Position numbers and translations under genes: made by a program. DNA of 34,405 bases from Planctomicrobium piriforme (lineage in GTDB: Bacteria > Planctomycetota > Planctomycetia > Planctomycetales > Planctomycetaceae): contig CAMATH010000091.1 in NCBI GenBank assembly GCA_945860955.1, forward strand, positions 1-34,405, written 5' to 3'. Position 1 is the first letter of the stretch. Every line of letters starts with the position of its first letter. Positions 18,889 through 27,558 of the stretch are shown here, one piece after another. Below the pieces are notes generated by a model. That model saw only the letters and a list, made by a program, of their open reading frames with translations. It was not told the DNA's origin and made no database searches.

Positions 18889-21800
18889 CTACGGAGTGTT
18901 CAGTTTTGCCTCAGTGGGCTTCGCTTCGGTCGGCTTTTCTGGTGCCGGCGTTTCGGCCGCCGGCTTCGCTTCCACCTTGGGTTCGGGCTTGGTGTCGTCG
19001 GCCGCAGGTTTGTCGGCAGGTTTCGCCTCCCCGGCCGGTGCGGCTTCTGGCTTCGTCGGTTCTGGTTTGGGCGGTTCTGGCTTCTTCTCGCCCGCTTTTT
19101 CCGGTTCCGGGGTCGCCGCCGGTCCCGGCTTCACGGCACTGGCTGTCTCGTCCGTCGCGTACAACCGGGTGCGGTCGTTCCATCCGCGCAACTCCAGATA
19201 CCGCTCCTGCGCGTTGATCGCCAGGCTGCGGAATCCCGGCTGCTGTGCCGACTTTTCGTCCAGCAGCTTCGTCCCCGACAGCTTGTCGATCGCGATCAGG
19301 TGCATCGACCAGAAATTCGCCATTCCCTTGTTCTCGAATTTCCGGGTGACGAACAGCATCAACGGCATGAACTCGAACCGCTCCAGCAACAGATTCTGGC
19401 CCAGCACCGTCTGCTTCCACCGCACCTTTCCATCCCGCGCGTTAAACGCCTGCACCAGTCCATTCACCCGCACATACGGAAGTTGTTCGTTGTAGTAATT
19501 CGCCTGTCCGCCGGGCTTGTTGACAATCAAATACACCGTGTCCGGGTCCGAGAAGACGAACAGCTCGTTTTTCGCCTTCACATCTGTCTCGGCGATCTCC
19601 AGAACCTGTTGTTTGCCATCCTCCAGATCGACGATCGTCAGCTTGCTTTCCTTGATCTCTTTCGTCGGCGGCTCCAACACGGCGAGCCGTTCCGAATCGA
19701 TCACGGAAGCGAGCGCCCCCTTTCGCAACGCCAGTTTCCAACGATCGGTTCCTGAGACCGGATCGAAGCGGCGCATCTCCAACCCCGATTCAAACGTCCC
19801 CTGCAGGATGAAATCGTCACCACACGCCATGAGCGCTTTCGACTGCAAGTCTTTCAGTTTGGGAACTTCCACCCGCTTGCCGTCGATCAATCGCATCGCC
19901 GCCGGTCCCGCCGGGCCACGTCCCCGGGCATTCGGCACAGCGCTGATCCCCATCATCGCCATTTGTTGCTGCTGCTGAGGATCGAGCGAACCCAGGTACA
20001 GCACCCGATTCCCCCCGGTAACATTCATCCCGACCCGCGATCCCTGCATCGTCCAGCGGACCTCTCCCGTGTCGAGATCCAGCACTGTCAGATTCCTTCG
20101 CCCCAGCAGGCAAACCACCTCGTCGCTCGCCATCGCGAACGCTCCGTGGAGTTGGGGCAACTGAATCGGCTGGCGATTCCCCCCCGAAGAGATCGTCCGC
20201 ATCGCCAGGAATGGCGTCTGTTGCCGATTGTAGTATTGCCCGGAATTGCGCGAGTCGAGCGTTCGCGTCCACAAGACCCGGCGTTCCAACGGCGAAATGC
20301 AGTTCAGCACTCCCTGACTCAACATCACCAGACGGTGGCCACTCGCTTTACCAAACGGAATCCCGCCGTCGGCACCATTGGTCGATGTGCGTAAGGGATG
20401 CGACCAGAACGAAACCTCGTCCTGACCGTCAATCACCTCCAGTCGCTGCGACTGGGGATCGACATCGAATCGGTAACGGCCGAAGAACGGCGTGCGGGGC
20501 GATAGACCCGTCAGTTCCTGTGTGACATAGTTCTGGTAGTTGGCCGCCATCCGTTCCACTTTGATCCCGGCAGCCCGCCATCCCAGCTCTCTGCGAGCGG
20601 TCGCCGGCGCGGGAATCTCCGTCAGAAGTGCCTCGGCCACCTGCTGCCCGGTTCGTCCCGGTGCCAGCTCAACCTCTTTCCAGCGGAAACCCAGATCGGT
20701 CGCGATCACACGAGCATCGTCCGGCAGTCCAAACTCATTGAGCAGCCGCGCAAGCTGTTCGGCCGCCTGAGCGGCGCGCGGAGCGTCCGCAGTTCGAATC
20801 ACACGCCGCAATTGCGCTTCGGCCATCACGAAATTGCGATCGGCCGCGAAGTCGGCGGCGAATTTCAGTCGGACCGAAATCCCCGCAGGATGTTCCGGAA
20901 ATCGCATGAGAAACCGGCGACGGTCATCGGGACTCCCCTGCAGCGCCACCTCAGCAAGTTGTTCCACCCGGGTCACAATTCCAGCGCGCTCCCCTTCCGG
21001 CACCGCCGAGAGCAGATCGATGATCTTTCCCGCGACCCACAAGTCGGCCCGAACCATCACGCCTGGAGTTTCCTCCTGAGGCACCAGCCGGCCCCCCGAA
21101 TCGTCTGCCAGTTGCAGGTACGCGTCAAACGCGCGCACGTATTCCTGCCCCGCCAGATAACGGTCGGCCTGCAAACGTCGCAGCATCAGCGTCTCATCCG
21201 GACCGGCAACCAGCTTCGCCAATTCCTCAATGCTGGCGTCGGTCTCGGGTCGGGTGAAGTCGGCCCGAATCACGGCGGCCAGTGTCGAGACCAGGTTTCC
21301 CCGGTGCCGTTTTTGATCGGCCGGGGCAAGCTGGTCCGCCGGCACTTTGTGCAGCAGTCCCAGCGCCTGGTCGAATTCACGCTGCAGCAGGGCGATGTCC
21401 GCTTCTCGCAACAGCGCCACCGGATCGTTGGGATTCGCCCCCTTCCGTCGGGCGATTTCTTCAACCACCGCTTCCTTTTGTTCAAACGCCGTCAAGCCAA
21501 ACGGATCGATGGACAACAGCATCCCCCGGCACATCAGCAGGTTTCCCACCCCGCCCGGCTGGTTGTCGGGGAGATAGGTCTTGTTCGACACTTCCCCCGT
21601 CGTGAGGCTGAAGGTCCAGACCTCGCCGCCAGCAAGCGGAAGATGATAATTCCCCTCGGCGGCGACACCGCGCCCCGACGGGAGCGTGTGCTTCAGCGAC
21701 CAGGCGATCTCGCCATTCGCGACACGATACGCCACCGTGGTGTCGCGTCCGACGGTGATGGCCAGTCCGTCGAAGACGCCAGCGAGATACATGCCCGCAC

Positions 21801-24066
21801 CCCGGGGTTTGGCCCAAAGTTCTTTGCCGGTCGACTGGTCAACGCAGTACAGCGTCTGCACCTGGGGGTCGGTCGGTGTGTAAATCACCCGTCCGCCCGA
21901 AGTGATCGGGGGAGCCGCGTGCCAGACGGTCGACAACCCGAACTGCTGCACCATCTGCCCCATCTCGGACCCGTCGGGACCGAGGTTGCGGGGGGCGTTG
22001 GGTCGGGGAGGACGGAAGCCCCACACGACCGAATGCGTTGTCCGATCGACCGCCACCAGCCATCCGACGGTCGTCGGGCAAAAGATCAGACCGTTTTCAA
22101 GCGCCGGCTGGGCGGCGAACCAGCGCCGGCCAATGTCCTTTTCAATCCCCGTGTCGGCATACGCGATCAGTTGCGACCACAGTTCGGCACCGGACGCAGG
22201 ATCGAGGCATAACAGCCGAATCTGGCCGGATCGATCCCCAGTGGTCGATTCCCCGATCACATACATTTCGGACCCGTCGAACACCGGAGGGCCAAACAGG
22301 AAGTAACCCGCCAAAGGCAGGTCAAGTTCTTCTCCGTTGGCGCTTCCTCCCACTTCCCACAACGGCCGACCGGTTCTCAGATCGTAGGCGGTCAAGCGGG
22401 TGCCGACACTGGGGCCGGTGTCGGCGTTGGGATTGAACCAGGTCTGACCCGGTTGCTGGTTGGTGAGGAATTGCGAGTCCTCGACGATAAACAACCGCAC
22501 GCCGTCGGAACTCAACAGTCCAAAGTTGGCGTTTCGGAACAGCAGGTGACACAGCGGTGCCCCCTCACCCATGCCGACGTTGTATCCAAAACCGCCCCCG
22601 TTCCAGCCTCCGAAGAAGCCCCCCCGCATCACCATGCCGTTGAAGTTCGGCTGCGCCATCTGTTGACCCGAAAGCAATCGGTCGAGCGTCTGCTGTTCCA
22701 TCGACGACCAGATCGGTCTCCCCGATTCGACGTCGACCACCTGAACACCATGCAGCGTGCGGTAGGCGACCAGTCCATCCACCAGAATCGGATTGATCAC
22801 GGGAATCGGTCCCGATTGGCTGTCGGCGAGATCCTCCAGCAGGTTGGTGATCTGATCCCGAACCGGTTCGCTGTCGGTCAACCGGTGATGCCAACGGGCC
22901 AGCAGCAGGGGGCTGCCGCCCCGTTGTCGACCGGTTCGGGCCGCCGTTCCGTAGTTGACGGGCCAATTCGATTGCGGTCCCGAATCGAGCGAAAGGGGAG
23001 AAGCACTCGCCTGCCACCAGGGAGCGGCGTCGCGGGGCTTGCCCCCCACGACCGCACGTTGCGTCCCCACGTCATCGACCAGCTTCTGAGCCGAGTCACC
23101 GAGCGCGGCACTCTTCAGCGCGTAGGCGGCCTTCAATTTCCACTGCGGATCCTCGGTCAAGGGGGGGCGGGAATTCCAAAGTGCCTGGAACCAGCGGGCG
23201 GCGGAAGCGTATTCGCCCCGTTCGAGATGGTACGACCCCAATCGATTGGCCGCCTCGTAACCGGCCGGCGTGTGAAAATAGCCCCGCGCGACTTTGCCCA
23301 GTCCGGCCGGCCGACCCGAACGAATCGCCTCGTTCAACAACTGCTGCGCCAGTCCACCAAACTGAACCCGGTATTGCTCCAGCATGTCGGGAGGAGCTTC
23401 GCCCCGCAACCGGTCCGCCGCTCCGCGCAAGGAAACCCATGTTCCGCCAGCGTCGAGGTACAGCGAGTCTTCCGGCAGCTCGCTCACCTTCTGCAGTAAC
23501 TCGAGCGCCGACTTCCATTCTCCCGCTTTCGCCTGGGACTGCGCTTTCATCATCCAGTTCGCCCCCTTGCTGTCATACGGAGCGGTCGCGTCTTTGGGAT
23601 GCTTCGGTGAAGCCGCCTTGTTCGCCGGCACAGGTTCGGTCGTGGCTCCGGGAATCGCCGGAGCTCCCCGCGCGGGCTGCATCGAACGGATAATCAGATC
23701 GGTCAACGGGTTCCGCGGCTTGGGCTTTTGCTTCTTGTCACCCTCCGCAGGCTTCTCCCCCTCTTTCTTCTTCTCTTCCCCTTCCTTCTTCTCTTCCGCC
23801 TCCTCTTTCTTCTCTTGCCCGTCTGCGGGCTTTGCCTCTTCGCCGTCTTTCGCACCCTGCCCCTTCTCGACAGGTTTCGCCACTTCGGTCTCAGGCTGAA
23901 CCTGAGGCTCATCCCCCCAGGCACCGGCTGCCGCCAGCGCACTCCAGGCGCACAAGCAGACCACCAGCCAACGTGGCCCGCCGACTGCCAAGCGAACGGC
24001 ACCGCGCCCCACTGTGTGCGTCATCAGGGACGAATCCGCAATTTCACTTCGAGCAAACTCAATCAT
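18889..24066 (-). CDS. Giant secreted PQQ-propeller/TPR protein
   Basis: The protein is about 1,725 residues. The start at 24066 is chosen because GAGG lies seven bases upstream; 24024 and 24186 are alternatives. A hydrophobic signal (about 33-50, 'WLVVCLCAWSALAAAGAW') precedes a Lys/Glu-rich low-complexity stretch (about 55-130). TPR-like helices follow (about 150-330), then a first PQQ/BamB-type propeller (about 370-870) with blades such as GELAWSLK-like and 'STGKELWAKPRG', a second TPR block (about 880-1150) and a second propeller (about 1190-1620). The tail repeats Pro/Glu/Ala/Lys units. PQQ-like propellers bind partners or cofactors outside the cytoplasm; nothing shows a catalytic PQQ site here. 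A scaffold role is inferred. Confidence 0.88.
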   Translation of the reverse strand: MIEFARSEIADSSLMTHTVGRGAVRLAVGGPRWLVVCLCAWSALAAAGAWGDEPQVQPETEVAKPVEKGQGAKDGEEAKPADGQEKKEEAEEKKEGEEKKKEGEKPAEGDKKQKPKPRNPLTDLIIRSMQPARGAPAIPGATTEPVPANKAASPKHPKDATAPYDSKGANWMMKAQSQAKAGEWKSALELLQKVSELPEDSLYLDAGGTWVSLRGAADRLRGEAPPDMLEQYRVQFGGLAQQLLNEAIRSGRPAGLGKVARGYFHTPAGYEAANRLGSYHLERGEYASAARWFQALWNSRPPLTEDPQWKLKAAYALKSAALGDSAQKLVDDVGTQRAVVGGKPRDAAPWWQASASPLSLDSGPQSNWPVNYGTAARTGRQRGGSPLLLARWHHRLTDSEPVRDQITNLLEDLADSQSGPIPVINPILVDGLVAYRTLHGVQVVDVESGRPIWSSMEQQTLDRLLSGQQMAQPNFNGMVMRGGFFGGWNGGGFGYNVGMGEGAPLCHLLFRNANFGLLSSDGVRLFIVEDSQFLTNQQPGQTWFNPNADTGPSVGTRLTAYDLRTGRPLWEVGGSANGEELDLPLAGYFLFGPPVFDGSEMYVIGESTTGDRSGQIRLLCLDPASGAELWSQLIAYADTGIEKDIGRRWFAAQPALENGLIFCPTTVGWLVAVDRTTHSVVWGFRPPRPNAPRNLGPDGSEMGQMVQQFGLSTVWHAAPPITSGGRVIYTPTDPQVQTLYCVDQSTGKELWAKPRGAGMYLAGVFDGLAITVGRDTTVAYRVANGEIAWSLKHTLPSGRGVAAEGNYHLPLAGGEVWTFSLTTGEVSNKTYLPDNQPGGVGNLLMCRGMLLSIDPFGLTAFEQKEAVVEEIARRKGANPNDPVALLREADIALLQREFDQALGLLHKVPADQLAPADQKRHRGNLVSTLAAVIRADFTRPETDASIEELAKLVAGPDETLMLRRLQADRYLAGQEYVRAFDAYLQLADDSGGRLVPQEETPGVMVRADLWVAGKIIDLLSAVPEGERAGIVTRVEQLAEVALQGSPDDRRRFLMRFPEHPAGISVRLKFAADFAADRNFVMAEAQLRRVIRTADAPRAAQAAEQLARLLNEFGLPDDARVIATDLGFRWKEVELAPGRTGQQVAEALLTEIPAPATARRELGWRAAGIKVERMAANYQNYVTQELTGLSPRTPFFGRYRFDVDPQSQRLEVIDGQDEVSFWSHPLRTSTNGADGGIPFGKASGHRLVMLSQGVLNCISPLERRVLWTRTLDSRNSGQYYNRQQTPFLAMRTISSGGNRQPIQLPQLHGAFAMASDEVVCLLGRRNLTVLDLDTGEVRWTMQGSRVGMNVTGGNRVLYLGSLDPQQQQQMAMMGISAVPNARGRGPAGPAAMRLIDGKRVEVPKLKDLQSKALMACGDDFILQGTFESGLEMRRFDPVSGTDRWKLALRKGALASVIDSERLAVLEPPTKEIKESKLTIVDLEDGKQQVLEIAETDVKAKNELFVFSDPDTVYLIVNKPGGQANYYNEQLPYVRVNGLVQAFNARDGKVRWKQTVLGQNLLLERFEFMPLMLFVTRKFENKGMANFWSMHLIAIDKLSGTKLLDEKSAQQPGFRSLAINAQERYLELRGWNDRTRLYATDETASAVKPGPAATPEPEKAGEKKPEPPKPEPTKPEAAPAGEAKPADKPAADDTKPEPKVEAKPAAETPAPEKPTEAKPTEAKLNTP

Positions 24067-24298
24067 CGCAACCTCGTCGGCCGGAATCGGCAACAGCAGG
24101 CCTGAAATCGGCCTGCGGACGACTCTTCTTTCCCCGCGCGGTTTTACGGCCCTGCGGTGCATCAATTGTCGGGCTGGCTGGGCCAAAACGCAAGATCGAT
24201 TGGCAAGACAACTGGCGAGCGGTCAATCCACCGGTTAAATTGAAGTTCGTTGATTTCAAGTTGCGTCCCCGGTGGTCCTGGTGGAACCAGGTTTCGAG

Positions 24299-24769
24299 AT
24301 GCAGTGTCCTTTCTGCCGATTGAGCGAAACTCGCGTGATCGACTCGCGCGCCAGCGACGAGTTTGTCATCCGTCGGCGGAGGGAGTGTCTCAGTCTGAAG
24401 TGTGGCAAACGCTTCACGACCTACGAAAAGATCGAAGAGACTCCACTCAAGGTCATCAAGAAAGATGGCACGCGGGTTCCATTCGACCGGTCGAAGATTT
24501 TTGTCGGTTTGGAAAAAGCCTGCTACAAACGCCCCGTCAGCTCGGAGCAGATCGAACGGATTGTCGCCCGTGTCGAAGAGGAAATCTACCAGGATTTCGA
24601 ACGCGAAGTGCCGTCTCGATCGATTGGAGAACTGGTCTTCAAACTGCTGCGCGAAGTCGACCAGGTCGCGTTTGTACGATTCGCCTCGGTGTACCGCGAA
24701 TTTCAGGACGTCAACGATTTTGTCGACGAGCTGGAGCCGATTCTGCGTGAGTCGGGGCGCATCGAATGA
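24299..24769 (+). CDS. nrdR: Transcriptional repressor NrdR
   Basis: The 156-residue protein starts at MQCPFC (ATG 24299). It has the NrdR zinc ribbon ([26 protein letters not shown]) and the ATP-cone domain ([18 protein letters not shown] to about residue 145, with [10 protein letters not shown] and [13 protein letters not shown]). NrdR binds NrdR boxes and represses ribonucleotide reductase genes according to the ATP/dATP state. The second cysteine pair is spaced C-x4-C (CLSLKC), whereas E. coli NrdR has C-x2-C. Its stop overlaps the sigma-factor start (ATGA at 24766-24769), so the three genes are probably translationally coupled. No nrdA/nrdJ gene is in the window. Confidence 0.95.
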
Positions 24770-25344
24770 CCGCGCTCAATGACGCCGAGATCATGTGCCA
24801 GGTGCAGTCGGGCGAGGTGGCCCAGTTCGATCTCCTGGTCGACCGCTACCGTCCGGCGCTATTGCGGGTCGCGAAGAGCAAACTCGGCAATCACAGTTGG
24901 GCGGAAGACGTCGTTCAGGAGACGTTTCTGGCGGCATTCGTATCACGACACACGTATCGGCCACAATTCGCGTTCCGTACCTGGCTGTGGACAATTCTGC
25001 TGAACCTCTGCCGCAAGCAATGGAAACGGTCCGCGAGTCGGCCCCAAAGCGAATCGCTCGACCATGTCGAGGAATCCGCCGAGTCTGCGTGGCCGGTCTC
25101 GAACGAAGAGGACGGTTTGGCGCGCATGCTGGCGCTCGAGCGTCGGACCGAAGTTGAGTCCTTGTTACAACGGTTGAGTGAGCCACAGGCCGACGCGCTT
25201 CGCTTGCGTTTTTTTGGTGAACTCCCGTACGAAGAGATCGCGGCGACTATGGGATCGAGCCTGAGCGCCGCCAAGCAACGCGTGCGGTTCGGCCTCGAAA
25301 AACTGGCCGCCATGCTGCACGAACAGTCAGGAGGGTCGACATGA
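24766..25344 (+). CDS. ECF-family RNA polymerase sigma factor
   Basis: The 192-residue protein has sigma region 2 ([20 protein letters not shown], then [14 protein letters not shown] and '[18 protein letters not shown]', residues about 21-87) and region 4 ([23 protein letters not shown], then '[20 protein letters not shown]', about 137-184). A charged linker lies between them. The size is normal for ECF sigma factors, with no C-terminal extension. It is placed between nrdR and the anti-sigma gene, with ATGA overlaps at both ends (24766-24769 and 25341-25344). Control by the next gene's product is expected from the family. The target promoters are unknown. Confidence 0.93.
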
Positions 25345-25883
25345 CCTGCGACGACGCGTTTGAACTGTTGACCGGATCGCACACCGATCGCCCTGAGGAG
25401 TTGCAGGCCCATTTACACTCCTGCTCCCGCTGTTGCCAGATGCGCGAAGTGCTGGCGCCGGCTGTCGCGCTGTTTGACCGTTCGGTTGGCGACGACCACC
25501 AGTCTCCCGATCGCGACGAACGCACCGCGACGCACCCGCGATCGAACTCGACGTGGACCGATGTCGCCCGCGTCGAAGCGGCGATTCGTGCGTCCCATCA
25601 GTCGCCATCGACAGCCGGCCGATTCCGGTTCGCCCCTCTCGGGTTGTCTCAAATCGCTCGCAGTGCCGCGCTGGTCCTCCTGGGCGCCGTCACCGCGATC
25701 GGCTGGATGGAAAGCCGCCATACTCCGCCCGCCGCGAATGGCGTCGCGGGTGTGCCGGAGATTTGCAATCGGGCACTGGCGGCGAAGTTGGCGGGTGCTG
25801 GTGGGGCGACGCCGCAAGCCCTGCAGTTGGCCGCCTCGTGCATCGCCTGTCATCACGACGACCGAATCGACACCACTCGTTGA
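25341..25883 (+). CDS. ZAS-type membrane anti-sigma factor with CxxCH motif
   Basis: The 180-residue protein has a zinc-binding anti-sigma motif H24-x3-C28-x2-C31 (with C3 near the start), a disordered linker, one membrane segment at about residues 105-123 ('ARSAALVLLGAVTAIGWM') and a short outer part of about 57 residues. That outer part contains C167-I-A-C170-H171, the c-type heme attachment signature. Binding of the ECF sigma factor by the ZAS domain is family knowledge. Heme or redox sensing by the outer domain is inference. The alternative is that CIACHH binds another metal or is fortuitous. It overlaps the sigma gene by ATGA and precedes the propeller gene by 46 bases. Confidence 0.8.
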   Translation: MTCDDAFELLTGSHTDRPEELQAHLHSCSRCCQMREVLAPAVALFDRSVGDDHQSPDRDERTATHPRSNSTWTDVARVEAAIRASHQSPSTAGRFRFAPLGLSQIARSAALVLLGAVTAIGWMESRHTPPAANGVAGVPEICNRALAAKLAGAGGATPQALQLAASCIACHHDDRIDTTR

Positions 25884-25929
25884 CCACCACCCGTTCATTG
25901 TTCTGGTTGGGGACCGCCGACAATCGCTC

Positions 25930-27558
25930 ATGAAACACCTCCTTCCCGCGTTGCTTGTAATCGTTGGAGTCTCCTGGAGCGCGGTGGCGCAGGAACCGCC
26001 GGCTGTCACCCCCATCGGTTCCCGCCGCGAGCTGTTTGTCGAAGAGGGGCTGATCGAATCGCTCACAGGCAAGGCCGAACTGCGTCTGCATCATCCGACC
26101 CCACGCGAAGTCGTCATTGAACACAACGAGCCCTGGGAAGGGAGCGGCTGTGTGTATCACAGCGTGTTTCAGGATGGCAATCTCTACCGCATGTACTACG
26201 CGGCAGGTCAGCTCACCGTCACCGAACAGGGAGTCAACGCGGGGACACACGGGCAGTTCTGCTGTTACGCCGAGAGTGATGACGGACTTCACTGGCGAAA
26301 ACCGAAACTGGGTCTGCACGAGTTTCAGGGGAGCAAAGCGAACAACATTGTGATGGTGCGGGAGCAGGTGGGGGATGCGGTTTCCGAACCGGGCGAGCCG
26401 GCGGTTTTCAAGGATGAAAACCCGAATGCGCCCGCCGACGCGCGGTACAAGGCGCTGCTCCCCGCGAACCTCCGCCCCGCCGACAACCGCCGGGGGTTGC
26501 TGGCGTTCAAATCTCCCGACGGATTGCACTGGACCGCGATGAGTGACCGGCCGATCCTGACCGACGGCGCGTTCGACTCACAGAATCTCGCGTTCTGGGA
26601 TCCGACCGCCGGTCTGTACCGCGCGTATTGGCGGTACTTCACCAAAGGGGGACACGACGACATCAAGACGTGGAATCCCCAGGGGGACCGCGCGATTCGT
26701 ACCGCCACCTCGAAGGACTTTCTCCACTGGGAGAACCAGCGCGATCTCCGCTATTTCGATTCTCCTTCGGAGCAGCTCTACACCAACCAGGTCAAACCAT
26801 ACTACCGCGCGCCGCACCTGCTCATCGGTTTCCCCTCGCGCTATGTCGAACGGGGGCATCGAGATCCCAAGGGGCACGAAGCCCGCGAGAGCGGAACACC
26901 CGACCGCATTCGCAAGTGGTCGTCTTCGCTCAAGGCGCTTCCCGAACGCCAGAACCGCGAATGGCGGGCGAAAGCGAGCGAACGCTATGGTCGGGCGATC
27001 ACGGAAGGGTTGCTGATGGCGAGCCGGGATGGTGTCGCCTTCAAACGCTGGAACGAAGGCTTCCTCCGCCCCGGGATCGAACGCCCGGGAACGTGGAACT
27101 ACGGGCAGCAGTTCATCGCCTGGTCTCCCGTTGAAACTGCGGGGACGTGGGAAGGATCGCCGCGCGAACTCTCGTTCTATGCGGTCGAAAGTTATTGGAC
27201 GGATGACAGCGATCTGCTCCGCCGGTACACACTTCGGCTCGACGGCTTCGTGTCGGCGCAGGCTCCGATGAGCGGTGGTGAACTGGTCACGCGGCCGATC
27301 ACCTTCACGGGAAGCCGGCTGTCGTTGAATCTCGCGACATCCGCCGCCGGCTCGGTGCGGGTCGAGATTCAGGACGCGAACGGGAAGGCGATCCCCGGTT
27401 TCACGCTCGACGACTGTGAAGAACTGTTTGGGGACACCCTCGAACGGGATGTGGTCTGGACAACCCAGCCCAACTTGGCCGCACTCAAGAACCGCCCCGT
27501 CCGGTTGCGGTTCGAGCTGCGCGACGCCGACCTGTTTTCGTATCAGTTTGGAGAATGA
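25930..27558 (+). CDS. Secreted glycoside-hydrolase-like (GH32/43-type) propeller protein
   Basis: The 542-residue protein starts at ATG 25930, with a signal peptide (MKHLLPALLVIVGVSWSAVAQ). Blade motifs recur: 'NLYRMYYAAGQ', 'CYAESDDGLHWRKPKLG', 'LAFKSPDGLHWTAMSD' and 'TATSKDFLHWENQRDL'. These S-x-DGLHW elements are seen in five-bladed propellers of the GH32/43/68 superfamily. The carboxylate catalytic residues cannot be assigned by eye. A C-terminal beta domain (about 430-542, 'GSVRVEIQDANGKAIPGF') could bind sugar. It is 46 bases after the anti-sigma gene and may be in the same operon. Substrate and activity are unknown, and a non-catalytic propeller is also possible. Confidence 0.82.
   Translation: MKHLLPALLVIVGVSWSAVAQEPPAVTPIGSRRELFVEEGLIESLTGKAELRLHHPTPREVVIEHNEPWEGSGCVYHSVFQDGNLYRMYYAAGQLTVTEQGVNAGTHGQFCCYAESDDGLHWRKPKLGLHEFQGSKANNIVMVREQVGDAVSEPGEPAVFKDENPNAPADARYKALLPANLRPADNRRGLLAFKSPDGLHWTAMSDRPILTDGAFDSQNLAFWDPTAGLYRAYWRYFTKGGHDDIKTWNPQGDRAIRTATSKDFLHWENQRDLRYFDSPSEQLYTNQVKPYYRAPHLLIGFPSRYVERGHRDPKGHEARESGTPDRIRKWSSSLKALPERQNREWRAKASERYGRAITEGLLMASRDGVAFKRWNEGFLRPGIERPGTWNYGQQFIAWSPVETAGTWEGSPRELSFYAVESYWTDDSDLLRRYTLRLDGFVSAQAPMSGGELVTRPITFTGSRLSLNLATSAAGSVRVEIQDANGKAIPGFTLDDCEELFGDTLERDVVWTTQPNLAALKNRPVRLRFELRDADLFSYQFGE

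Follow-up and report, generated by a model that had tools for sequence, protein, structure and literature searches.

A membrane anti-sigma factor family of Planctomycetota with a conserved CxxCH tail, a predicted heme c site

Does a CxxCH motif at the end of a membrane anti-sigma factor mark a heme sensor, and does the nrdR gene encoded with that factor belong to the same system? Planctomycetes carry many ECF sigma factors, and the signals to which these respond are mostly unknown. The window, the whole 34,405-nucleotide stretch of Planctomicrobium piriforme DNA that was analysed, contains an overlapping unit of nrdR, an ECF sigma gene and a gene for a membrane anti-sigma factor with a C-terminal CxxCH. 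The original prediction held that a c-type heme or redox signal outside the membrane is coupled to the sigma factor, in one transcript with the ribonucleotide reductase repressor.

The overlapping unit and its neighbours

All three genes lie on the forward strand. The first, nrdR (24299..24769), encodes the ribonucleotide reductase repressor, a full-length member of TIGR00244 (E 1.1e-54, above the NCBIfam cut-off) in which the zinc ribbon and the ATP cone are both present (Pfam Zn_ribbon_NrdR and ATP-cone). It is followed by the gene for an ECF sigma factor of 192 residues (24766..25344), recognised by sigma70-ECF of NCBIfam (1.8e-24) and by Sigma70_r2 and r4_2 of Pfam, and by the gene for the membrane anti-sigma factor of 180 residues (25341..25883), identified by its motifs and homologues. 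Both junctions are ATGA overlaps, exactly as had been predicted: the sigma gene starts at 24766 and nrdR ends at 24769, and the anti-sigma gene starts at 25341, with AGGAGG just 5', and the sigma gene ends at 25344. A scan of positions 24100-26000 found no sigma-70-like promoter, and in a search for a shared promoter 5' of 51 sigma genes the best two-part motif covered 4 genera, no more than was reached in three runs on shuffled data (3, 4 and 4). Upstream of the unit and divergent from nrdR lies a minus-strand ORF of 1765 residues (18889-24186), whose C-terminus is rich in lysine, proline and glutamate.

The pairing of the sigma and anti-sigma genes is widely kept. Among 57 loci from the same taxonomic family, assembled as described below, a sigma homologue lies just 5' of the anti-sigma gene in 51, and in 34 of the 57 the two genes overlap by exactly four bases under the chosen start codons. 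At one of the remaining six (L106) the locus begins at the contig start, and the other five have no adjacent sigma gene. In these five (L067, L071, L092, L093 and L095) no sigma gene was found nearby even with a profile that does find five controls, and the anti-sigma protein keeps its zinc motif and CxxCH despite the absent neighbour.

Recurring genes around the pair hint at a metabolic context for some members. Of the 57 loci, 17 have one or more of five such genes nearby, and in 13 of these 17 the set includes mtdB, assigned by PF09176 (E 1.8e-31). This gene encodes methylene-tetrahydromethanopterin dehydrogenase and belongs to tetrahydromethanopterin C1 metabolism. In 11 loci from five other genera (L063-L066, L078, L081, L094, L096, L107, L108 and L110) mtdB stands just 5' of the sigma gene and ends 626-759 bases before the start of the anti-sigma gene, and in several of them DUF447 and other recurring genes follow on the 3' side. 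Mere co-occurrence with mtdB was rejected as functional evidence, since 155 of the 170 genomes of the taxonomic family carry the gene and only its position is therefore informative; that position hints that in part of the family the sigma/anti-sigma pair is tied to tetrahydromethanopterin C1 metabolism.

Conservation of the zinc motif and the CxxCH tail

The anti-sigma protein of the window begins with the zinc anti-sigma motif H24-x3-C28-x2-C31 (25410..25433) on the predicted cytoplasmic side, crosses the membrane by a single predicted helix (residues 105-123, 25653..25709, hydropathy peak 1.68) and ends in a tail of about 57 residues. This tail contains C142 (25764..25766) and the CxxCH, C167-I-A-C170-H171 (25839..25853), a predicted covalent heme c site nine residues from the C-terminus. 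Both motifs had been read exactly in the original prediction. The protein has zero matches in NCBIfam and a single match in Pfam, under cut-off at E 0.23, so that no domain covers the CxxCH. The AlphaFold2 model (mean pLDDT 69.2, pTM 0.36) is confident for the N-terminal domain only, where residues 1-40 form helices with pLDDT 86-97; it places the membrane helix at 103-127 and the CxxCH inside a helix, 159-179, of a tail that is helical at low confidence. A Foldseek search with this model gave no match with E < 0.001, and RseA (1or7_C) reached E 8.9 at best. The Pfam zf-HC2 model matched six of ten scanned members, in each case under its cut-off, and lay above it, with neighbours, for L272. 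With H-x3-C-x2-C in a helical N-terminal domain and a gene beside an ECF sigma gene, the protein has two features of a zinc (class I) anti-sigma factor.

A search with the window protein alone in 59 relatives gave matches in 20 genomes, its own included. Five of the matches were confined to residues 1-70 (L007, L008, L013, L015 and L016; E <= 1.4e-5), and all four of these genes that are complete encode a CxxCH. The matches L021-L023 were weak (E 0.0037-0.0059) and were set aside as not recognisable members of the family. A profile, A1, matched 75 of the 170 genomes of the taxonomic family, 67 of them strongly and two with a second, weak match; the anti-sigma family is thus patchy within it. 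There were 67 same-family matches with E < 1e-19, of which 57 were fetched at length. From 58 fetched same-family loci one was dropped (L055, 29.7 bits, without CxxCH), which leaves the 57 loci used here, and 56 of these are complete, L072 being cut by a contig end.

Every one of the 56 complete homologues has the CxxCH, 43 of them once and 13 twice, so the check on planctomycete orthologues that the original prediction called for came out in its favour. Nine residues are the same throughout the 56, namely C3, H24, C28, C31, P40, C142, C167, C170 and H171, counts that lean on a profile which itself includes the CxxCH and are to that extent circular. Beyond the N-terminal domain the invariant positions are C142, C167, C170 and H171 only, and apart from these the tail is short and poorly conserved. 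Several members with two motifs (L062, L057, L069, L083 and L145) carry in addition a terminal C-L-W/F/R motif similar to that found around the conserved cysteine further upstream.

A less circular route started from the N-terminal pattern M[NT]CDxAF[DE]x[LMI], which occurred in 46 stretches of the genome collection; 38 of these were confirmed and 37 are complete, and the CxxCH is present in 37 of 37, but the tblastn confirmation ran on the whole query. Because the set of 57 already includes 36 of the 38, this is a second route and not a new set. By title 36 of the 38 are Planctomycetota, Planctomyces, Gimesia or their kin, a distribution obtained with a single pattern that was modelled on the window's family and bearing weakly on spread beyond Planctomycetota.

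As a control, other zinc-motif ORFs were read at 30 zf-HC2 loci from six genomes. Six loci had no readable motif ORF, and of the 24 ORFs read a downstream CxxCH occurred in one, itself a member of the anti-sigma family studied here, and in none of the others (0 of 23), in a sample where 9 of the 24 frames run off the end of the locus and some may be spurious. No CxxCH was found either in five weak generic zinc matches beside a sigma gene (L055, L216, L218, L219 and L220). With conservation in 56 of 56 homologues against 0 of 23 among the control ORFs, the motif is more than a chance occurrence and a genuine feature of this anti-sigma family.

When A1 was run on the class it matched 102 of 397 genomes, 57 in the window's taxonomic family and 45 outside it. 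Of the latter, 37 were read, together with three weak matches inside the family (L216, L219 and L220), and these 40 loci divide into 26 with CxxCH, ten from f11 and four weak generic matches without CxxCH (the same three and L218, which lies outside the family). Each of the 26 outside-family members combines the zinc motif and a membrane helix with two CxxCH, mostly CCxxCH and then CxxCH; as the set was selected for CxxCH, its presence there is by construction and its doubling is not. A sigma gene lies close on the 5' side in 25 of the 26. The ten f11 homologues (L189, L194-L198, L202, L205, L206 and L214) are 135-161 residues long and stop just past the membrane helix, with neither CxxCH nor tail and with no sigma gene nearby. 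Their loci share recurring neighbour genes, one of which presumably encodes an arginyl-tRNA synthetase. A second profile, A4, matched 40 of 392 genomes of the phylum; its strong matches all fell within the class, and 13 genomes outside the class gave weak matches (best 1.0e-8). The selection of the outside-family set by its CxxCH and the overlap of the pattern-based set with the set of 57 narrow the breadth that can be claimed, and the 56 of 56 is untouched by this. When 75 sigma proteins were placed in a quick tree, the single or double CxxCH required at least 4 changes, far below the number for shuffled labels; this clustering suggests that the type of tail is inherited with the sigma factor, and that the number of motifs drifts.

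Membrane topology and the heme question

Attachment of a c-type heme requires that the CxxCH lie outside the cytoplasm. All 82 CxxCH-bearing proteins have the zinc motif before the strongest hydrophobic stretch and every tail CxxCH after it. Hydropathy gave one peak above 1.5 in 81 of the 82 and no such peak in one, and the zinc side carries the more positive net charge in 67, with 8 ties and 7 reversed. From hydropathy and charge the N-in, C-out layout that heme attachment requires is thus predicted, and the outer position that the original prediction gave to the CxxCH agrees with its place beyond one predicted membrane helix throughout the 82.

In order to see what the tail resembles, a profile of 26 family members was compared with the sequences of the PDB, which gave 19 matches up to E 10. 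Sixteen of these are named as cytochromes or multiheme proteins and are aligned through the tail, two are named otherwise, and 3hug_B ('probable conserved membrane protein'), which we take to be the anti-sigma factor RslA, is matched through the zinc motif. The matches are weak and largely driven by the CxxCH itself; the best has E 1.8e-4, with no stretch of it passing alone, and the next 0.047. None of the cytochrome families of Pfam was above cut-off in any of ten scanned members. The best of their matches was Cytochrome_C7 in L190 (1.8e-4, 21.7 bits against a cut-off of 24.8), and sub-cut-off matches to cytochrome c7, c3, NapC/NirT or paired-CxxCH models were seen in five of the eight double-motif members and in neither of the two single-motif members.

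The genome of the window (G000) has a frame of at least 1396 residues in which PF05140 (ResB) and PF01578 (Cytochrom_C_asm) are both above cut-off, the ResB-like match lying at G000:C32:35261-35449 (L221) and being short, 63 of 486 profile positions. By this domain content the frame would encode a CcsBA-type heme-attachment synthase. ResB matches in similarly long frames were seen in many relatives. ResB itself passes its cut-off in 36 of 40 relatives and so does not track the anti-sigma family. Of the redox-signalling idea in the original prediction, the part that stands is the conserved CxxCH and its outer placement, and the heme itself stays a prediction.

Proposed mechanism, alternatives and known systems

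We regard it as probable that the two genes form a translationally coupled ECF switch in which the anti-sigma factor carries an extracytoplasmic c-heme sensor tail, the heme being predicted. The cytoplasmic zinc-type domain would hold the sigma factor, and the protein would span the membrane once and leave its tail of about 57 residues outside. There the CcsBA-type synthase would join C167 and C170 to one heme c, whose axial ligands would be H171 and perhaps, at the distal position, C142, the third invariant cysteine of the tail. A redox change of the heme, the binding of NO or another small ligand, or a failure of heme loading would then alter the tail, and the sigma factor would be released. 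The gene layout, the conservation, the predicted topology and the heme-attachment gene described above are the basis from which we infer that sigma is bound and heme attached, and by which ligands, signal and release step the switch would work.

Several other accounts of the same residues were weighed against it. That the CxxCH is a chance motif is a negligible prospect: in the window protein it does lie outside any Pfam domain, but it is conserved in 56 of 56 homologues, against 0 of 23 control ORFs with a zinc motif. The tail cysteines, C142 with the CxxCH or the two CxxC, could instead form a zinc site or a thiol-disulfide oxidant switch outside the membrane and bind no heme. The shortness of the tail, its three invariant cysteines and one histidine, and the likeness of the two CxxC pairs of outside-family members to a zinc ribbon would all fit, but the histidine that follows the second cysteine in 121 of the 122 CxxC motifs past the membrane helix is required by neither a zinc ribbon nor a dithiol switch, members with a single CxxCH keep it too, and none of the 19 PDB matches (E up to 10) is named as a zinc ribbon; we consider this account unlikely. 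A heme might also be bound and be constitutive, structural or concerned with electron transfer, with proteolysis or a partner protein as the true signal. Many membrane anti-sigma factors are controlled by proteolysis, and the number of CxxCH varies within the family (one in 43, two in 13), and both speak for this account, which we likewise consider unlikely; it is countered by the sets read, which hold no long-tailed member without CxxCH, and by the ten f11 proteins, in which the motif, the tail and the adjacent sigma gene are missing together.

The remaining account is that nrdR, the sigma gene and the anti-sigma gene are one unit linking the supply of dNTPs to a heme signal from outside. From the overlaps a shared transcript of the three genes is plausible, and the same order recurs in one congeneric genome (G002). 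Against this, nrdR adjoins the pair in these two genomes of one genus only, that is at 2 of the 57 anti-sigma loci, with no nrdR found at the other 55; and among 40 relatives, where nrdR was matched in 30 and its loci were read with flanks of 1.5 kb or less, a sigma gene stands beside it in 2 of the 30 and is missing in 28. Two further genomes of the same genus (G001 and G003) have nrdR without an adjacent sigma gene. In G003 the divergent upstream gene is kept, its homologue of the 1765-residue ORF adjoining nrdR with about 61% identity over 313 residues. A single unit in this sense is very improbable, and nrdR coupling as a conserved arrangement was rejected. The pairing of nrdR and sigma gene in the original prediction is thus real in the window's genome and one other and is not conserved; given its restriction to one genus, the association is probably recent or incidental, a lineage-specific neighbourhood outside the mechanism.

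The sensor reading places the protein between several known systems. Like the ASDI/ZAS factors ChrR, RsrA and RsiW, it has an H-x3-C-x2-C motif in a helical N-terminal domain and a neighbouring ECF sigma gene, and like many ASDI factors it is membrane-anchored, as a survey describes (PMC7406223); unlike them it adds an extracytoplasmic tail with one or, in parts of the family, two CxxCH and a further invariant cysteine. The words 'cytochrome', 'heme' and 'CxxCH' are absent from the text of that survey, as are 'cytochrome' and 'heme' from that of PMC8103513. The sCache_heme proteins (Tll0287, DUF3365) also carry a short CxxCH segment in a sensor outside the membrane, and PMC12889525 reports that their c heme has His and Cys as ligands and shows redox behaviour, and that NO is bound by a relative that lacks the cysteine. 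By analogy with this ligation C142 could be the distal ligand. The CxxCH there sits in a Cache fold, whereas here it lies in a short anti-sigma tail, and a Tll0287-like model was found in L057 alone of ten members, under cut-off at E 0.98; no Cache fold is seen around the CxxCH of this family. The text of PMC12889525 contains no 'sigma factor', 'anti-sigma' or 'Planctomyc'. Small multiheme cytochromes (c7, c3, NapC/NirT, NrfB) resemble the outside-family members in having two nearby CxxCH, with matches below significance or cut-off; in contrast to them the tail is fused to an anti-sigma domain, and no such family is above cut-off. Among the literature matches listed, which extended to planctomycete ECF factors and to NrdR with ECF sigma factors, none describes, judged by titles and the openings of abstracts, an anti-sigma factor with a CxxCH, heme or c-type cytochrome tail. 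The sigma/anti-sigma group may already be a catalogued ECF group.

A conserved heme c signature on an anti-sigma factor names a class of signal, namely redox state, NO or heme supply. As a wider and more tentative proposal, somewhat short of an even chance, an ECF anti-sigma family of one class of Planctomycetota may sense one of these outside the membrane through one or two covalent, Cys/His-ligated hemes c, a chemistry without anti-sigma precedent among the matches listed, and may be tied in part, by gene position, to tetrahydromethanopterin C1 metabolism. If so, covalent heme would join the sensing chemistries of anti-sigma factors, and the tail would be a further example, along with sCache_heme, of a sensor that uses a short cytochrome-like segment. 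That the tail is kept in close relatives suggests a little-studied coupling of redox or gas conditions outside the cell membrane to gene expression.
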